DNA of 20,683 nt from a virus: positions 1 to 20,683 of IMG/VR virus record IMGVR_UViG_3300024346_000647; one strand, given 5' to 3'. Of the stretch, positions 9,011 through 18,053 are shown piece by piece. Numbering within the stretch: position 1 is the first letter of the stretch; each line of letters starts with the position of its first letter. The position numbers were made by a program, and so were the translations under genes. The notes under the pieces are model-generated. The model made no database searches and was not told the origin of the DNA. It saw nothing but the letters and a program-made list of their open reading frames with translations.

Positions 9011-10765
9011 TTATATCGTTTGTGCCGGATTTGGTTCTGCGCCATCGCCGCCAAGTTCGTTTCCTGTATTTGTTTCGGGTGCAGTATCAGTTCCGCCGTC
9101 AATGCCGCCTTCATCTCCACCTAACTCGTCTTCAAGTCCGCCAAAGTCGCCTGCAAGATCAGCGCCGCTTAATCCAGCTCCTCTCATTTCGCCTGCCATG
9201 TCGTCAGTAACAAGATCAGTTAAGTTTTCGTCATTTTCTTCACGCCATAAACGTTCGTTCTCTGCTATTTCTTCTGCACTTAATCCTAAGAATCTTTCAA
9301 GTGCAAATCTATTTGAAATATACGGAACAGCTGCCATACTTGTAAATGTGCTTATTCTATTGTTGTCTAGTTCTGCTTGTCTATATGCTGCAAAGTTCTG
9401 TGGCGGTGTTAATCGTAAGTCAAACATTGCATAATCAATGTTTGCACCTTTACTTTGCAAAAATAGTTTAAACTCACTATTAAAATCTTCGGCCATCATA
9501 TCTTGCAAACGTTCGCAATATTTGTTAAATCTTAACTCTTGAATGTATGCTGTGCCAACTCGTCCATCATTATACTGTGATGCACCGTCATCAGCGCCAG
9601 TAGGCAAGTAGGAACTAGGTATACGCAGACCGCGTACTAGTTTGTTAGTAAAGTATCTAAGATCATCAATCTCGCCTAAGTTAGTACCGCCTGGTAGTGT
9701 TTCAACTTTTGAACCACGTCCTTCAGCTGTTTGTGGGAAAAAGTAATCTTCGTTGATTGACAGTGGATTATAACTACTGTCTATAACATTTGTACCTCCA
9801 CCTGTCTTACTTGGGATACGTCTTTGATGTATTTCAGTTTTAACACGTTCCACAAACTGCATAGCAAGGTGTGAAGGCATGTTGCCCACATCAACGTAGA
9901 ATACTCTTCTTTCAGGAGCACGTTGAACACGATAGATAATAATCGCATCTTCTAATAACTCCTTTTGCTTGTATACTTTAAAAATACTTTCAAGCAAACT
10001 ATTACCAAAAGGATAGTTTTGATCTAACCCTTCACTTAAACTCAAATGCAAAACATGTTGTGCATCAATGTATGTTTCGTCGTGTTCTTGTGCAAATCTA
10101 CTAGTGTTTCCACTTGGTGTATGATTATTACCTACGCCAGTTCCTCTTTGAACTTGCTGATATCCGTTAGTTCCGCCTGGTCCATAACTGTTTTGTGTGT
10201 TTAATGGTGTTGCTTCCAATGCACCAAATGCAAAGTTTAGATTTTTTACAACATACTGTTCTGGTTTTTTGCCTTCTGATTCATTTACAATGATTTTTGT
10301 AATCTGACTAGGATCAACATGAAATAGTTTCTGTGTTTCAGGATCTCTAATAAAAAACTGATCACCGTATTTAAATGTATTGCGTATAGTTCTAAACATA
10401 CGTGTTTCAAACTTGTTTAGTTTACACCATTGCTGTAGATACTGTCCAATAACTTGTACTTCGCTGTTTGTAGGTGCGCCTTTAAAATCAAGACGGAAGT
10501 GTGTTTTGTTGTCGTTGTTTTTTTGTGTACAAAATTCAGCTAGAATATCAAGTGCAGCATTAACTTCGCTATCACTATCCATAGTGTTGTATTGATTATA
10601 ACGTTCAATACGATTTGGTGAGCCAACATAAACGTCAGGCAAGTGAGATGAATAGTTAGCTGCGGCCGGTCCCATGCCGCTAGATCCTTTTTGACTAAAC
10701 GGACTGTAGCTTCCGTTTGTGTTATCACTTGTAGGAACTGGAGTAAAATGTTTTTTCCAACTCAT
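9011..10765 (-). CDS. 20: Portal vertex protein, gp20-like, 584 aa
   Basis: The dodecameric portal starts head assembly and is the DNA channel. The family is recognised from the N-terminal SPNRIERYNQYNTMDSDSEV, the FRTIRNTFKYGDQFFIRD segment, the IIYRVQRAPERRVFYVDVGN block and RLQDMMAEDFNSEFKLFL near the end. The last 70 residues form an acidic, Gly-rich tail (GGLEDELGGDEGG). Length is a little above T4 gp20 (524), mainly from an Asn/Gly/Thr-rich insert near residues 190-225 and this tail. Its ATG overlaps the TGA of the tape-measure-like gene (ATGA), so the two are translationally coupled. Confidence 0.95.
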   Translation of the reverse strand: MSWKKHFTPVPTSDNTNGSYSPFSQKGSSGMGPAAANYSSHLPDVYVGSPNRIERYNQYNTMDSDSEVNAALDILAEFCTQKNNDNKTHFRLDFKGAPTNSEVQVIGQYLQQWCKLNKFETRMFRTIRNTFKYGDQFFIRDPETQKLFHVDPSQITKIIVNESEGKKPEQYVVKNLNFAFGALEATPLNTQNSYGPGGTNGYQQVQRGTGVGNNHTPSGNTSRFAQEHDETYIDAQHVLHLSLSEGLDQNYPFGNSLLESIFKVYKQKELLEDAIIIYRVQRAPERRVFYVDVGNMPSHLAMQFVERVKTEIHQRRIPSKTGGGTNVIDSSYNPLSINEDYFFPQTAEGRGSKVETLPGGTNLGEIDDLRYFTNKLVRGLRIPSSYLPTGADDGASQYNDGRVGTAYIQELRFNKYCERLQDMMAEDFNSEFKLFLQSKGANIDYAMFDLRLTPPQNFAAYRQAELDNNRISTFTSMAAVPYISNRFALERFLGLSAEEIAENERLWREENDENLTDLVTDDMAGEMRGAGLSGADLAGDFGGLEDELGGDEGGIDGGTDTAPETNTGNELGGDGAEPNPAQTI

Positions 10766-12942
10766 ATTGTACCTTTCAGCATATTGCCTTGTAGACTTTT
10801 TGTAGCTCTAAATGTTTTTTGTTGCGCACTTGCTGAGGATGATTCTATAGTTACAAGTGCTTGTAGCTGTTGTATCATTGTATCAAACTTACTTGACATT
10901 AAATTACTCATTTGTTCTGCAACATTATTATTACTTATCGTATTTTGTCCATTTATGCCATTGTTTTGAACATTGCTATCAAGACTTTTAATACCTTTCA
11001 TAAGATTTTGCATAACACCCATACTAGTATTTGCACTCATAACAGTAGCTGGACCACTAATAAACTCAGGGCCAGCTTCACCTACCATGCCGTATTCATT
11101 AGCGCCGATGCGTCCGCCTTCTGCAAATCCGCCGGTGTATCGTGATGGATTAGATTGAAATCTTGCAACTTTACTCATTGTTTCGGATTGTATAGCTGCC
11201 AATCCATCAATTGAGTTTACTATTGTCTCACTTAAATTGGTTTCAGCTTCTGCAATTCTGGCTCTTGCGGCTTCGGCTGCTTCTCGTGCTGCTCGAACTG
11301 GTGGATCTAGCGCATTAAGCCCTTGTTGAGTTAGTGTTGCTAACTCTGCTACAGAAGTATCTAAAGCTGCGTTTGCCTCTGCTACTTCTGCTCGTGCTGC
11401 TTCTACATCGTTTTGTGTAGTTGTTGCTGTGTCGTTAACTACTGTGTCTGTGCGTTCTCCAGTTGCAGTTGTAGTTGCTCCTAAAGCTTCAGCATCAGAA
11501 GTTGCACTTTGTCCGTTTTGTACTAGTTGACCAAGAATGTTTCCATGACCTTGTCTCATTACTTCGCTACTTGTATCAAGAAATTCGGCTGCATTAAATA
11601 AGTTGTTGATGCCGCCGCTTAGTTCTTGAGCTATTTGATTTGCGTTTGGCATTACTTCTGTTATTTTTTGCAAGGCGGCAACAGCTACATTTTCAATATG
11701 CGGAATAGTTGTTTCCATAACTGACGCTGTTAGTGTGCGTAAGTTTTCTTGTATTTTTATAGTTTCGTCAAATATCCCTGTGACTTGTTCTGTTTGACGA
11801 GCTTGCTCTTGGCGTATTTGTTCATCAAGCTGCTCTCTAGCCTCTTCAGATGTCATAGTTCCATCTCTGACACTATCAACAGCGTTTTTATAATCATAAC
11901 TGGCGTTACTAGCATCAGCAAATGCACCTGATATATTACTCATGCCTCCAAGCATTGCAGTTTGTCTAAACTGTTCTGTGTTTTGATAATCAATTGCTGC
12001 GCCAGTTGCTGCTTCTAAACTACTTTGGAAACTGCTAATATCGCCAGCATTAAACTGTTGGGCCGCAGCATACAAGTCGTCAGCACCTTGACCCATTGCA
12101 AGCATTGCACCACGTGTTGCTTCAGTAGTTGGTGCGCCTCTAAGAGCGATATCTACAAATGCATCAGCAGCATCTTTACCTAGTGTGTTTTGTAGCTCTA
12201 CTAACTTGTTGGTAAATGCAGTTTGTTCTTCAGCAGTTTTACCAGTTAAAAACGCATTAACATCGCCTTGACGTCTGCGTTCTTTCATTTCATCAGCTAT
12301 TACATCACGTTGCTTGCCAGTTAACTTTGATAGTCCATCTAGTTCAACCATTAGATTTTTAGCAGCAACAGCTTGTTGTTCTACACTTGCTCTATCTGTT
12401 CTACTGTTAGCATCACTTAGTTCGCCATAAAGGGCAAGATTTTCATTTATGTCTGCTGTTGTAAAACCCAACTGTCGGAGTTTGGTTCCTAGTTCTGCGC
12501 TATCAAGAATAGTAGTTGATACTGCTTTAAATCTTGCCATTGCTAGATCAGTTGTACCGCCAAATGCTCTTAAACTTTCAGAATTCTTTTTTAAGAATCC
12601 AGTCATTTCCTCAACACTTAAACCAAGTTCGGCGGCAGATACCTTTACATCTTTTATTTCTTTGCCAAATGTAGCACCAACATTAGTAAGTTGTTGGTAT
12701 TCAGCAAGACTAGCTTCAGCAAACTGCGACAATCCGTCAACTAGTTTGCCAACAGTATTTCCAAACAATCCAGTGTTAGCAGAAATTGCACCACTGTATG
12801 CAGATAGCTGTTGCTGGCCAGTGAGTAATGCGCCGCCAAGACCAACTGCTGCTTTAGTAACACCAGTAAGGCCGCCGGTTGTATTATTCAATGTACCTAA
12901 CAGTTTACTTATTGCGTTGCCGCCGACTGCTTCTTCTGCCAA
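10762..12942 (-). CDS. Tape-measure-like tail protein, 726 aa, TTG start
   Basis: Long helical, Ala/Gln/Glu-rich stretches span most of the protein (for example AARAEVAEANAALDTSVAEL). Near the C-terminus, residues 608-635 contain EGGRIGANEYGMVGEAGPEF, the GEAGPE motif seen near the end of many tail tape measure proteins. It most likely sets tail length or fills the tail tube, like T4 gp29, though homology to gp29 itself is not evident. The only start codon after the in-frame TAG at about 12957 is a TTG at 12942, with AGGAG 9 bases upstream. It stands back to back with gp26, a hub or tail assembly gene, and overlaps gp20 by 4 bases. Confidence 0.78.
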   Translation of the reverse strand: MAEEAVGGNAISKLLGTLNNTTGGLTGVTKAAVGLGGALLTGQQQLSAYSGAISANTGLFGNTVGKLVDGLSQFAEASLAEYQQLTNVGATFGKEIKDVKVSAAELGLSVEEMTGFLKKNSESLRAFGGTTDLAMARFKAVSTTILDSAELGTKLRQLGFTTADINENLALYGELSDANSRTDRASVEQQAVAAKNLMVELDGLSKLTGKQRDVIADEMKERRRQGDVNAFLTGKTAEEQTAFTNKLVELQNTLGKDAADAFVDIALRGAPTTEATRGAMLAMGQGADDLYAAAQQFNAGDISSFQSSLEAATGAAIDYQNTEQFRQTAMLGGMSNISGAFADASNASYDYKNAVDSVRDGTMTSEEAREQLDEQIRQEQARQTEQVTGIFDETIKIQENLRTLTASVMETTIPHIENVAVAALQKITEVMPNANQIAQELSGGINNLFNAAEFLDTSSEVMRQGHGNILGQLVQNGQSATSDAEALGATTTATGERTDTVVNDTATTTQNDVEAARAEVAEANAALDTSVAELATLTQQGLNALDPPVRAAREAAEAARARIAEAETNLSETIVNSIDGLAAIQSETMSKVARFQSNPSRYTGGFAEGGRIGANEYGMVGEAGPEFISGPATVMSANTSMGVMQNLMKGIKSLDSNVQNNGINGQNTISNNNVAEQMSNLMSSKFDTMIQQLQALVTIESSSASAQQKTFRATKSLQGNMLKGTI

Positions 12943-13008: not shown

Positions 13009-13848
13009 ATGGAAAAAACAGAAAGTCCACTAAAAAAATATCGGAGACAGCCTAAGTTATATCTAAACATTCCTAGCAATGGAAAATGGTATGATCAAAA
13101 GACCGTAGCCGAAAATACATATACCAATCTTGCAGTGTTTAGTATGACAGCAAGTGACGAAATATTATTTAAAACACCCGATGCTCTAATCAATGGAGAT
13201 GCAACTGCAAATAACATCAGCAGTTGTATTCCTGCTATATTAGATCCTTGGTCTATTAAAACATTAGATCTCGATGCAATACTTGTTGCAATAAGAATGG
13301 CATCATACGGCGAAACTATGTCAGTTACTTCTAAATGCAAAAAATGTAATGTTGAAAACTCATATGAAATTAACTTACAACATTATTTAGATTTCTTTTC
13401 AACAAGAGAGTTTGAAGATAAGATATATCATGAAGATTTTTGCCTACACCTCGAGCCATTGTCTTATAAGAAATGGACTGAAATTCAAAAACAACAAACT
13501 GCGTACCAACGTGCATTAAATCTAACAGTAGGTAGGATTGATGATGAAAAAGAAAAAGAAAAGTTTGTACAAGACATTATTGATAAAATAAATGCTTTAG
13601 TTGCACAAGCAATACTTGATCAAGTAGTTGCTATCGAAGTTGACGGACATATTGAAAATGATAAAAAAGAAATTAACGATTTTCTAAATGATGCCGAAGT
13701 AGTACTATTTCATAAAATTAAAAAGATGATTGAAAAGAATACATTAGAGTGGAAAATACCTGCTGAAGAAATAAAATGTACCGAGTGCGGTCACGAAGAT
13801 ACAGTTAGAATATCATTGGACACATCGGATTTTTTCGTACAAGGCTAA
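13009..13848 (+). CDS. 26: Baseplate hub assembly protein, gp26 family, 279 aa
   Basis: The start (SPLKKYRRQPKLYLNIPSNG, then WYDQ) and the middle (AILVAIRMASYGETMSVTSK, then CKKC) match the T4-type gp26/gp51 hub assembly family. Four cysteines in two CxxC pairs, 110/113 and 257/260, suggest a zinc site. AGGAA lies 6 bases before the ATG. It is longer than T4 gp26 (208 residues). The final codons contain a canonical -1 slippery heptamer followed by a hairpin that includes the stop codon, so a fraction of ribosomes should make a 353-residue fusion. It stands back to back with a tape-measure-like gene, which suggests a tail assembly chaperone role. Confidence 0.85.
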   Translation: MEKTESPLKKYRRQPKLYLNIPSNGKWYDQKTVAENTYTNLAVFSMTASDEILFKTPDALINGDATANNISSCIPAILDPWSIKTLDLDAILVAIRMASYGETMSVTSKCKKCNVENSYEINLQHYLDFFSTREFEDKIYHEDFCLHLEPLSYKKWTEIQKQQTAYQRALNLTVGRIDDEKEKEKFVQDIIDKINALVAQAILDQVVAIEVDGHIENDKKEINDFLNDAEVVLFHKIKKMIEKNTLEWKIPAEEIKCTECGHEDTVRISLDTSDFFVQG

Positions 13849-13883
13849 CGAGACTCGATGATTCTGAAATACTTTCGTTAGCC
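13830..13883 (+). promoter_or_regulatory. Programmed -1 ribosomal frameshift signal
   Basis: The gp26 frame reads GAT TTT TTC, giving the heptamer T TTT TTC at 13830-13836, a perfect X XXY YYZ site. After a 6-base spacer comes the stem GGCTAACGA (13843-13851) paired with TCGTTAGCC (13875-13883). A further G-U and A-U pair extend it to 11 pairs with a 19-base loop. The gp26 stop TAA (13846-13848) lies inside the stem. The -1 frame is open from 13809 to 14069. Heptamer, spacing, stem and open frame all fit canonical -1 frameshifting. Confidence 0.85.
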
Positions 13884-14069
13884 AAGGATTTTGAAAATAA
13901 TATCAAACAAATAAAAGACAATGCATATCGTTTGAGTTGGTATATGCGTGGTGGGCTTTCGATTGAACAAATACTCTATGATACTGATTTAGAGGATCAT
14001 GAGATTATTAGTAATATTATAAAAGATAATATTGAAAACACAAAAAGTAGTAAAATGCCGTTGATTTAA
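13836..14069 (+). CDS. -1 frame extension of gp26 (frameshift product C-terminal domain, 77 aa)
   Basis: This frame runs RTRLTRLDDSEILSLAKDFE, then a SWYMRGGLSIEQILYD stretch and NIENTKSSKMPLI, ending at TAA 14067-14069. It is helical, charged and protein-like. It has no usable start of its own: the first in-frame ATG is at 13944 in the middle of the WYMRGG motif, the only earlier candidate is a TTG at 13932, and neither has a ribosome binding site. Reading through the slippery site at 13830-13836 would fuse it to residue 276 of gp26. The arrangement mirrors the lambda G/GT tail chaperone. A relation to T4 gp51 (which follows 26 in T4) is possible but not shown; T4 gp51 is much longer. The stop abuts the convergent gene at 14070. 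Confidence 0.8.
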   Translation, partial: RTRLTRLDDSEILSLAKDFENNIKQIKDNAYRLSWYMRGGLSIEQILYDTDLEDHEIISNIIKDNIENTKSSKMPLI

Positions 14070-15428
14070 TTATTGAGGACCTGGAACAGCATCAGGGTTT
14101 GTCGGCATACCTGGTTCGCTTGATGTACTAGGATCAGCACCTGCTGCTGGTTCTGTACCTGCTGCTGGTTCTGTTGCATCAACTGGATTTAGATTCATTA
14201 TACCAGCTAATAATACTTCTCTGCGTCCTTCAGGTATATATGGAACTAGTTGGCTTTTTATTCCTGGAGGAAATAGTAAAGTTCCAAAAACTAGTTTAGC
14301 CCATTCACTTTCTCCGTAGTATTCACCTGTAACACCTTCTGTTTCTTTTGGATCGTATCCTGATATTGCTTTAGCCAATGCACCGGTGCCAAACTTGCCA
14401 TCTACAGCCGCAGCCAATCCAGCTGTTACAGATTCTAAACTACGACCAGTTAATACAAATATATCTTTAAACGAACTATCAACAATCACTTCTGCTATCC
14501 AACGTTGTATACTCGATGAACTTAAAATTAGTGGCACTACTATCCACAACGCCTCGGTGACAATCAAACTTATAAAAGATACAGGAGCGCCAACTCCTGT
14601 AAGTGCAACAGCTACTTGTCCGCTTCTAATTACAGCTTTGATTGGTTTTAATATTTGTTTTACAAATCCAATTTTTCTAACCAACAATAATATTTGTGCA
14701 GTATAATATGCTACAATTTGGCCTTGTAGTATGCTTCTAATATCTTTTAATCTCTGGATATCTGTTCCTGGAGGAGCATTGTCAATTTCTTGATTTATGT
14801 TGACAACCTCTATCATCATTCCCCAGAAAGGTCCAGCAACTGCCATAGCCTTTGTTGCTATTCGGACTACAGGATTTTGTAGAATTTTTATAAGAGTGCT
14901 ATTCTTAGCTTTTGCAACATTTTCAAAAGTTTCTGCTGTTGCATTTGTAATGCGTCTTCCTAGAGCAAACCGTTTGTTTACTGTACCTTTTAATCCGCCG
15001 GAGCGTACTTCTTTGTCAATAGTAGATGTAACTTGAGCCGGAGTCTTGTTGCTGCTGCTCAGTTCATCTACTCTTTTTTGAATAGCTCTGGCTTCTGTTT
15101 CACTAGCAGATTCAACCATAGTTGTTTGATCAGGTAAAAATGTTGCCCACTTATTATCACTAAGTTGTTGTACACCTGGTGTAAACTTAAACCCACTTCG
15201 AGGAATTGGAGTACTAGTTCTCCACTGCGCTGTTAGTTGTCTGCCAACACCTGATGGCGCAGGTCTACCATTACCACCAGTAGGATTAACCTCAGTCCAC
15301 ATAGCACCACGCCATTTGTATGTCTTACCATCGAGCTCAGCAGTGGTATCAATCTCGGGCATCCGAGTATCAGTTTCATCTTCGAATATAAGATGTGTTT
15401 TTCTTAATGTGACTTCACTTAGTTTCAT
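14070..15428 (-). CDS. Unknown protein with hydrophobic segments, 452 aa
   Basis: I do not recognise the family. The N-terminus (MKLSEVTLRKTHLIFEDETD) is followed by a GKTYKWRGAMWTEVNPTGG stretch resembling a small binding module, then charged helices to about residue 180. Hydrophobic stretches lie at about 190-220 (VVRIATKAMAVAGPFWGMMI), 240-265 and 280-320 (VTEALWIVVPLILSSSSIQR), so it may insert into or disrupt a membrane. The C-terminus has tandem EPAAG-type Pro/Ala repeats. A perfect late promoter box lies 25 bases before the ATG, so a virion or late lysis/injection protein is inferred. It ends directly against the plus-strand gp26 extension with no terminator between them. Confidence 0.75.
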   Translation of the reverse strand: MKLSEVTLRKTHLIFEDETDTRMPEIDTTAELDGKTYKWRGAMWTEVNPTGGNGRPAPSGVGRQLTAQWRTSTPIPRSGFKFTPGVQQLSDNKWATFLPDQTTMVESASETEARAIQKRVDELSSSNKTPAQVTSTIDKEVRSGGLKGTVNKRFALGRRITNATAETFENVAKAKNSTLIKILQNPVVRIATKAMAVAGPFWGMMIEVVNINQEIDNAPPGTDIQRLKDIRSILQGQIVAYYTAQILLLVRKIGFVKQILKPIKAVIRSGQVAVALTGVGAPVSFISLIVTEALWIVVPLILSSSSIQRWIAEVIVDSSFKDIFVLTGRSLESVTAGLAAAVDGKFGTGALAKAISGYDPKETEGVTGEYYGESEWAKLVFGTLLFPPGIKSQLVPYIPEGRREVLLAGIMNLNPVDATEPAAGTEPAAGADPSTSSEPGMPTNPDAVPGPQ

Positions 15429-15928: not shown

Positions 15929-16381
15929 TTAGGTGTTGGAATGTTTTGCCTGTATGTGATGTTCTAGCAATGCCTGTTTGAGTTTGTCTGATCCACCGAC
16001 TCTAACATTAATGATACCGTTGTAGTAATCATCTGTTTCGAGTACTCGCCTATCAAACTGCTCTCGTGCCTCTATGTAGGACATTTCGCCCCTACCTTTA
16101 CATAGGTATAGTATTTCTCTTGTAAACTTATCTGAGCCTAGTGCAGCTACATCTGCATTTAGTCTGTCTGAACTACCGTAGTATGTTCTCCAGTCGCTTT
16201 CTTTGTAGCCTCTACGTTTGTTCTTCTTGCCTTTTAATGGTGGCTTAGTAGTCTTAAACTTTGCTAGTTTTTTGCCTATGTATTTTTGACCTGTAGTAGT
16301 ATTAGTAATAAGATAAACAAATCCTTCATACTCGTCTGGTATTTCAGTTATTTCTTTACCTTGATATATCCAACTACTCAT
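15929..16381 (-). CDS. GIY-YIG endonuclease, SegE-like, 150 aa
   Basis: The protein has the GIY-YIG nuclease layout: FVYLITNTTTGQKYIGKK (residues 21-38, carrying the VY...YIG pair), a Lys/Arg-rich insert, DWRTYYGSSDRL with likely catalytic Arg65, FTREILYLC, and YIEAREQF with the probable metal-binding Glu104, then an Asn-Gly near 121. The RTYYGSS pattern is that of T4 SegE-type freestanding homing endonucleases. No clear DNA-binding C-terminal domain remains beyond about 45 residues. No good ribosome binding site precedes the ATG, 37 bases after the halogenase gene. It likely acts as a mobile homing nuclease or a host or competitor DNA nuclease. Confidence 0.78.
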   Translation of the reverse strand: MSSWIYQGKEITEIPDEYEGFVYLITNTTTGQKYIGKKLAKFKTTKPPLKGKKNKRRGYKESDWRTYYGSSDRLNADVAALGSDKFTREILYLCKGRGEMSYIEAREQFDRRVLETDDYYNGIINVRVGGSDKLKQALLEHHIQAKHSNT

Positions 16382-16418: not shown

Positions 16419-18053
16419 TTATTGGATTATATTTTTCTTATGCTTGTTAATATATTCACTTCCAAACATATTGCTAAAATAATCTATTGGCCATTTGTTT
16501 AAGCCTTTGTTGTATTCTTCTACATTATTATACATTTTCATAAATTGGTCAATCGATTTTTTATTATTTGACGAATGTATTTCGTGTAATAACTTTTCGT
16601 TACGTACTCTACGAATGTATAATTCTTGTTGCTCCGGTGTTGACTTTGTTGGCCAATCGTCTAAATCTTGAACCCAGTTGTTTGCAATGTCTAACCAGTT
16701 CACATCTGGAAATGCTGTAACATATCCTACAACACTGTCCATACAGTTTGCCTGTTCGTAATATTTTTTCTTAACAAGACCTTTGTGGTTAAGCTCTTTA
16801 CCGATGCGTCTCATATCTTGCCAGAAATGATTGTCTCCACGTCTACTCAATGTGTAATGTACTGCTGTAAAATCTGCAATGTCATCAAAATAATATGTAA
16901 CCTTGCGATTGTAGTAATCTTTATCGTAATCACGTTGTAACATCCAAGCAATGCGTTTCATACAAGAGATGCTGCTTACAACAGCATTTGCTTCGAGAGG
17001 ATCAATAAATCCTGCCGCCATTCCTACAGCAAATGTGTTTCCAACATTGGGAGTTTTAAGTCTTCCTGGTGTCCATTTTAAATTTCGGGGCTCTCTTATT
17101 TGTCTGCCTTTAATAATACTGTGCCAATATTTTAGTGCTTCATCGTCACTAAAGTATTCGTCGCTGTACACAAGTCCAGTACCGATACGATTATTAAGAG
17201 CAATACTAAACTGCCAGCCCATGTCACGTCTAATACTTCTAGTGTAGTTAACTTGTTCTGTTTCTTTGTCTTCATACTCAATAGGACATACCCAGGCACT
17301 ATTAACTTTGTTCGCTGTGTAAGTATGAAACTCATTGGTTAGTTTTCCAATCAATACTCTTGACAGCCCTGTACAGTCGACCCAAATGTCACTAGTAACT
17401 TCACGTCCGTTGTCTAATACAACACTAGTAATGCCTTTATCGCTTGTATTAACTTTATCAATGTGTGCAATAGTTTCGACTACATTATATGCTTTACAAA
17501 CATTTTCTCTAATCCAAGGAGAAGTTTTTTCTGCATCGATGTGATAAGCATAGGTTGCAGTTGCTGGCAGTAAGTAGTTGCCATCGTCGTCAAACGGCAT
17601 TTTTAAATCTTTACAATACTGATAGCCTTCAGCATTGTGATGATAAACATCCAAGTCTGGTGCGCTACGATTTCTAAACACATCTAACCAAACGTCTGTA
17701 GTTTTAATTTCATTTGGAAAAGTACTAGTAATGTTTTTCCAAGTAAAGTCTTTGTCAAGTCCATTACTCCAATGGAACATACGAAGTACATCTGGCCCAT
17801 CAGCAGTATCAGTCCAATCTTCCATGTTGTTGCCGTATTTGAATACTGCACCTGTTTCTCTCATAAAACGTTTTTCATCAACACCCAGCCCTCCAAGTAG
17901 TCCTGGTAAATGAGGTGTAATACTTTCACCAACACCGATAATACCAACTTTCTCGCTATGAATCATTTCAACAGTTGCATTAGGAAATTCTTTTGCTAAG
18001 AAACAACTAGACAATGCTCCAGCTAACCCGCCACCAACTATTGTAATTTTCAT
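16419..18053 (-). CDS. Flavin-dependent halogenase (tryptophan-halogenase family, viral type), 544 aa
   Basis: The family uses reduced FAD, oxygen and halide to make hypohalous acid, which a conserved lysine directs onto an aromatic substrate. Visible are the FAD-binding VGGGLAG (residues 6-12), GVGESITPHLPGLL (40-53), FKYGN with Lys72 in the place of the catalytic lysine, TYAYHIDA (167-173 region), WVDCTGLSRVLIG (224-236), and AAGFIDPLEANAV (346-358) with Glu354 in the position of the catalytic glutamate. The WxWxIP motif is changed to WQFSIA at 280-285, as expected for an atypical member. Length fits. A marine cyanophage homologue, VirX1, is known to iodinate varied substrates. AAGGA precedes the ATG, which follows the TAA of the upstream gene. 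Substrate here is unknown. Confidence 0.9.
   Translation of the reverse strand: MKITIVGGGLAGALSSCFLAKEFPNATVEMIHSEKVGIIGVGESITPHLPGLLGGLGVDEKRFMRETGAVFKYGNNMEDWTDTADGPDVLRMFHWSNGLDKDFTWKNITSTFPNEIKTTDVWLDVFRNRSAPDLDVYHHNAEGYQYCKDLKMPFDDDGNYLLPATATYAYHIDAEKTSPWIRENVCKAYNVVETIAHIDKVNTSDKGITSVVLDNGREVTSDIWVDCTGLSRVLIGKLTNEFHTYTANKVNSAWVCPIEYEDKETEQVNYTRSIRRDMGWQFSIALNNRIGTGLVYSDEYFSDDEALKYWHSIIKGRQIREPRNLKWTPGRLKTPNVGNTFAVGMAAGFIDPLEANAVVSSISCMKRIAWMLQRDYDKDYYNRKVTYYFDDIADFTAVHYTLSRRGDNHFWQDMRRIGKELNHKGLVKKKYYEQANCMDSVVGYVTAFPDVNWLDIANNWVQDLDDWPTKSTPEQQELYIRRVRNEKLLHEIHSSNNKKSIDQFMKMYNNVEEYNKGLNKWPIDYFSNMFGSEYINKHKKNIIQ

Follow-up and report, generated by a model that had tools for sequence, protein, structure and literature searches.

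Frameshifting is reportedly, according to an abstract of 2022, apparently conserved in several groups of T4-like phages, and T4 itself is said to use genes 26 and 51. In phage lambda a single gene, G/GT, is described as giving a short protein together with an extension reached by a -1 frameshift, and as serving as an assembly chaperone (PMC5009743), and both gp26 and gp51 of T4 are given as hub assembly chaperones (PMC3004832). A passage of PMC12846349 credits Vladimirov, Gautam & Davidson 2022 with poly-T slippery sequences in the TAC-N genes of T4-like phages, and a passage of the PRFect study (PMC10885494) takes from the same work that some T4-like phages dispense with a frameshift and have a short gene beside a longer, fused one. 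The first-pass annotation of the DNA analysed here had known of no established frameshift for gp26 or gp51 of T4-type phages, a view that is out of date given the precedent of Vladimirov, Gautam & Davidson (Virology 2022), who identified the chaperone genes of T4-like phages. Chaperone frameshifting in T4-like phages was already reported in 2022 and the locus described here is a new example of it, not a new mechanism. It has in common with that system, as far as the passages above describe it, a short form of the gp26 family, a poly-T site, an extension in another frame and the existence of some two-gene phages, while the marine group and the covarying stem around the 0-frame stop are results of the present analysis.

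The window, i.e. the whole stretch of DNA that was analysed, consists of 20,683 nucleotides of the IMG/VR virus record IMGVR_UViG_3300024346_000647 and contains several other T4-type genes, namely those for portal, major capsid protein and prohead protease, together with a gene whose product, like gp46, has AAA/SMC and Rad50-hook domains. The features of the gp26 locus are the following:

10762-12942, minus strand: divergent gene for a 726-aa protein, candidate tape measure and expected client, adjoining the portal gene
13009-13848, plus strand: gene of the gp26 family in the 0 frame, coding for a putative short tail assembly chaperone (TAC-N) of 279 aa
13830-13836, plus strand: slippery heptamer T TTT TTC in the gp26 frame, three codons 5' of the TAA stop
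13837-13842, plus strand: 6-nt spacer between heptamer and stem, from sequence and predicted fold
13843-13853, plus strand: 5' arm of a putative stimulatory stem, enclosing the 0-frame stop
13846-13848, plus strand: 0-frame stop TAA within the stem; relatives have TAA or TAG
13873-13883, plus strand: 3' arm of the stem, from predicted fold and covariation
13836-14069, plus strand: -1 frame extension (TAC-C; P0002), 77 aa, stop at 14067-14069

The 0-frame protein matches PF12322 (T4_baseplate) with an E-value of 5.6e-15 and 56 bits, against a curated cut-off of 24.5, and the baseplate hub family phrog_150 with an E-value of 5.2e-17, and on these profile matches it is a member of the T4 gp26/gp51 family. 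An AlphaFold2 model of the protein (pLDDT 86.7) found its best viral matches among predicted T4-like baseplate hub assembly proteins, and sequence and fold searches of gp26 against the PDB gave no match with E ≤ 0.001.

The arrangement at the end of this gene is that of a canonical -1 frameshift site, with an X XXY YYZ heptamer before the stop, a stem within ~5–9 nt of it (here a 6-nt spacer) and a coding downstream frame. Heptamer, spacer, 11-pair stem with the gp26 stop and startless -1 frame had all been pointed out in the first-pass annotation, and every position and number given there held. Programmed -1 ribosomal frameshifting very probably yields both gp26 as a short chaperone and a 353-aa fusion as its long form, as in lambda G/GT, a reading already put forward from the sequence and one supported by every comparative test that was run. 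The majority of ribosomes would stop at 13846 and release the 279-aa short form, while some, held at the stem with TTT-TTC in the P and A sites, would slip back one base onto TTT-TTT, read past the stop and so extend the protein by 77 residues to the 353-aa long form. Slippage, its rate and the chaperone role are inferred.

When the extension was used as a search query 64 viral loci were obtained, and in the 58 of these that include the junction and were examined the heptamer is identical in every case and the -1 frame open in each, the loci being related and not independent so that this and the other heptamer and stem counts given here overstate the number of events. The alignment of related marine loci proposed from the first reading thereby bore it out, since besides the heptamer in 58/58 it revealed a fixed spacing and a covarying stem in the 21 close relatives. 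The nearest isolated phages, Atu_ph07 and Phosso (both rhizobial giant phages), carry the heptamer as well. A search with gp26 led to the giant T4-like phages XaC1, BF, 121Q, PA5oct, CBB, Vibrio 2.275.O, Kaldavass, phiKp_21 and XbC2, in all nine of which T TTT TTC lies close to the gp26 stop, with a -1 ORF after it, and in a wider scan of cyanophage-like loci the heptamer was located immediately 5' of the last codon and stop in 80 out of 80. It is also present in KVP40 and Aeh1 (Straboviridae) and in phiW-14, while phiM12 and HTVC008M have T TTT TTT (seven T) instead. Codon usage does not account for the invariant heptamer, because Phe-Phe pairs at other places in these loci are rarely encoded by TTT-TTC (3/53 in the marine loci and 16/218 in the cyanophage-like loci); in the small sample from giant phages the corresponding figure was 5/21. 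To judge from these comparisons the frameshift signal is real and deeply conserved. A sequencing error was rejected as an explanation of the two frames, since many independent contigs and isolated phages carry the same arrangement.

A run of six T, extended to seven in HTVC008M and phiM12, could also let the RNA polymerase slip, in which case the frame would be shifted in the transcript and not by the ribosome. The run is short, though, and in the 138 marine and cyanophage-like loci it always ends in C at a codon boundary, and within the close clade it is followed 3' by a covarying stem at fixed spacing, which fits a ribosomal stimulator; we therefore hold polymerase slippage to be extremely unlikely. 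In Rhodothermus phage RM378 (L198, ~2150–2390) the gp26-family gene ends in a run of seven T and a candidate extension lies in the +1 (or -2) frame, not in -1.

The stem of the window has 11 pairs in the predicted fold, nine of them forming a perfect inverted repeat, and a z-score of -3.4 against shuffled sequences. Among 21 distinct close relatives, all with the same 6-nt spacing, the covariation of the stem was 0.364 compared with 0.150 ± 0.022 in shuffles, none of 500 being as high; 90.9% of the stem cells were paired (77.4% in shuffles, 20–41% in slid controls) and changes on both sides numbered 31 compared with 11.5 in shuffles. The third base of the stop codon pairs with the opposite arm in every one of the 21 sequences, as A-U in 16 and as G-C in five. 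The cyanophage-like group has a different stem, in which one position varies among U-A, G-C and A-U. The two marine relatives that diverge most (L069 and L070) lack the stem of the window or have a different one, and no strong downstream fold was found in KVP40, Aeh1, BF and CBB, nor any match in an Rfam scan of the window. On this evidence the stem is well supported in the close clade and not universal, its stimulatory role being putative. Since it sits at the end of the gp26 frame it could be taken for a transcription terminator or some other RNA element unrelated to frameshifting; against this, it is without a T tract and was not called as a terminator, and coding runs through it into a downstream frame under selection, which leaves such a function hardly credible.

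No stop interrupts the -1 frame between 13809 and 14066; its post-slip part (13836–14066) comprises 77 codons, and the 77-residue domain of the earlier annotation was recovered from the sequence, as was the 353-residue fusion (276 + 77 aa). Over 76 codons in 18 representatives no stop was found in the -1 frame of any of them, whereas the other two frames contain 7.3 and 9.6 stops on average, and beyond the stem the dN/dS of the -1 frame is ~0.14. By these measures the -1 frame is coding and under purifying selection. The full length of the marine extension matches the -1 extensions of giant phages in a profile comparison (E 6.6e-8), while no direct profile match to T4 gp51 or to the cyanophage domain, no family in Pfam, PHROGs or NCBIfam and no meaningful match by sequence in the PDB were found for it. 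A structure model of the extension, with modest confidence (pLDDT 74), proposes three helices.

The -1 ORF might instead be an independent gene that is translated by re-initiation after the gp26 stop, with the heptamer being incidental. Atu_ph07 and Phosso have ATGA overlaps at the junction, and most cyanophage-like loci have an ATG at +3 after the stop that annotators have taken as the start of 'gp51'; in all of these the -1 ORF could be translated separately. The window, however, has no ATG, GTG or TTG in the -1 frame before TTG 13932 and ATG 13944, the latter falling within a conserved WYMRGG motif, and most close relatives have no start within ~60 nt of the slip site. Many members lack a start upstream of WYMRGG, Aeh1 has none before +48 and PA5oct has no start codon anywhere in the -1 frame, and the residues upstream of the first start in this frame are conserved. 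Relatives with an own start and no heptamer had been named as the case that would speak against frameshifting, but the heptamer is retained even in loci having the ATG. An independent gene is thus very unlikely, and frameshifting from gp26 into the extension remains the preferred reading.

T4 has gene 26 for the short and gene 51 for the long form, both of the PF12322 family, and its gene 26 does not end in a slippery heptamer. A single PF12322 gene is present in each of S-PM2, P-SSM2, HTVC008M, 121Q, PA5oct and Atu_ph07 and in each of seven marine records of 58–137 kb, which may be fragments. T4 gp51 consists of the short-form domain and a C-terminal extension in one frame and shares PF12322 and phrog_150 with gp26 of the window. 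The family phrog_150 spans T4 gp51 (aa 3–281) in one frame and is split at the -1 shift in S-PM2, P-SSM2 and HTVC008M, and the cyanophage -1 domain matches the C-terminus of T4 gp51 (profile match, E 3.6e-5), phrog_634 covering both. The Kyanoviridae P-SSM2 and S-PM2 resemble the present locus in having T TTT TTC before the last gp26 codon, a -1 ORF and a downstream stem, but differ in the sequence of the stem, in an ATG just past the stop and in an extension of 60 codons. Giant phages, cyanophages and some Straboviridae all carry the same heptamer at the same site, which supports the view that the frameshift is ancestral to the T4 superfamily and that genes 26 and 51 of T4 are exceptional; the locus of the window extends chaperone frameshifting to an uncultured marine phage group. 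It is conceivable, if rather doubtful, that some lineages (cyanophages and rhizobial giant phages) make both the frameshift fusion and, from a start codon at the junction, a separate C-terminal domain; if so, the stem would set the ratio of three products and such loci would be an intermediate state on the way to the two separate genes of T4.

In this reading, some phage records list one half of a protein as a small gene of its own or omit it altogether. The genes named 'gp51 baseplate hub assembly catalyst' in P-SSM2 (L104, 2718–2891) and S-PM2 (L108, 3191–3364) resemble the C-terminal part of a gp26 frameshift fusion, in Atu_ph07 (L001, 4001–4231) the annotated gene gp687 begins inside the extension domain, and in PA5oct (L075, 3331–3549) a startless -1 extension of 73 codons is absent from the annotation.

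In its sequence anatomy the gp26 locus is like lambda G/GT, with a short gene and a frameshifted C-terminal extension without a start of its own. The gp26 model differs from lambda-type chaperones in being larger, in its mixed alpha/beta structure and in its Cys pairs, and no solved lambda-type chaperone structure was among the matches of the fold searches with gp26. A chaperone role of gp26 and of the fusion is suggested by analogy with gpG and gpGT, in which case one would expect the short form to coat the tape measure protein and the C-terminal extension to bring in subunits of the tail tube.

As for the client, the divergent gene had been proposed to encode the tape measure, which fits its position, since it lies beside the portal gene, between portal and gp26, as in XaC1, BF, 121Q, CBB, XbC2, Kaldavass and Phosso; the proposal gained nothing from profile searches, in which the 726-aa protein had no family match, nor from pairwise BLASTP against the equivalents in giant phages and Phosso, in which nothing was significant. 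By position the product of 10762–12942 is a candidate tape measure protein. The equivalent protein of PA5oct is annotated as found by MS.

On the other side of the locus a gene for a 452-aa protein (14070–15428), with no convincing family match, is convergent with the fusion gene, their stop codons abutting. Further along, near the gp26 locus, a SegE-type GIY-YIG endonuclease (PF19835) is encoded at 15929–16381 and a tryptophan halogenase-like gene (PF04820, E 5e-76) at 16419–18053.
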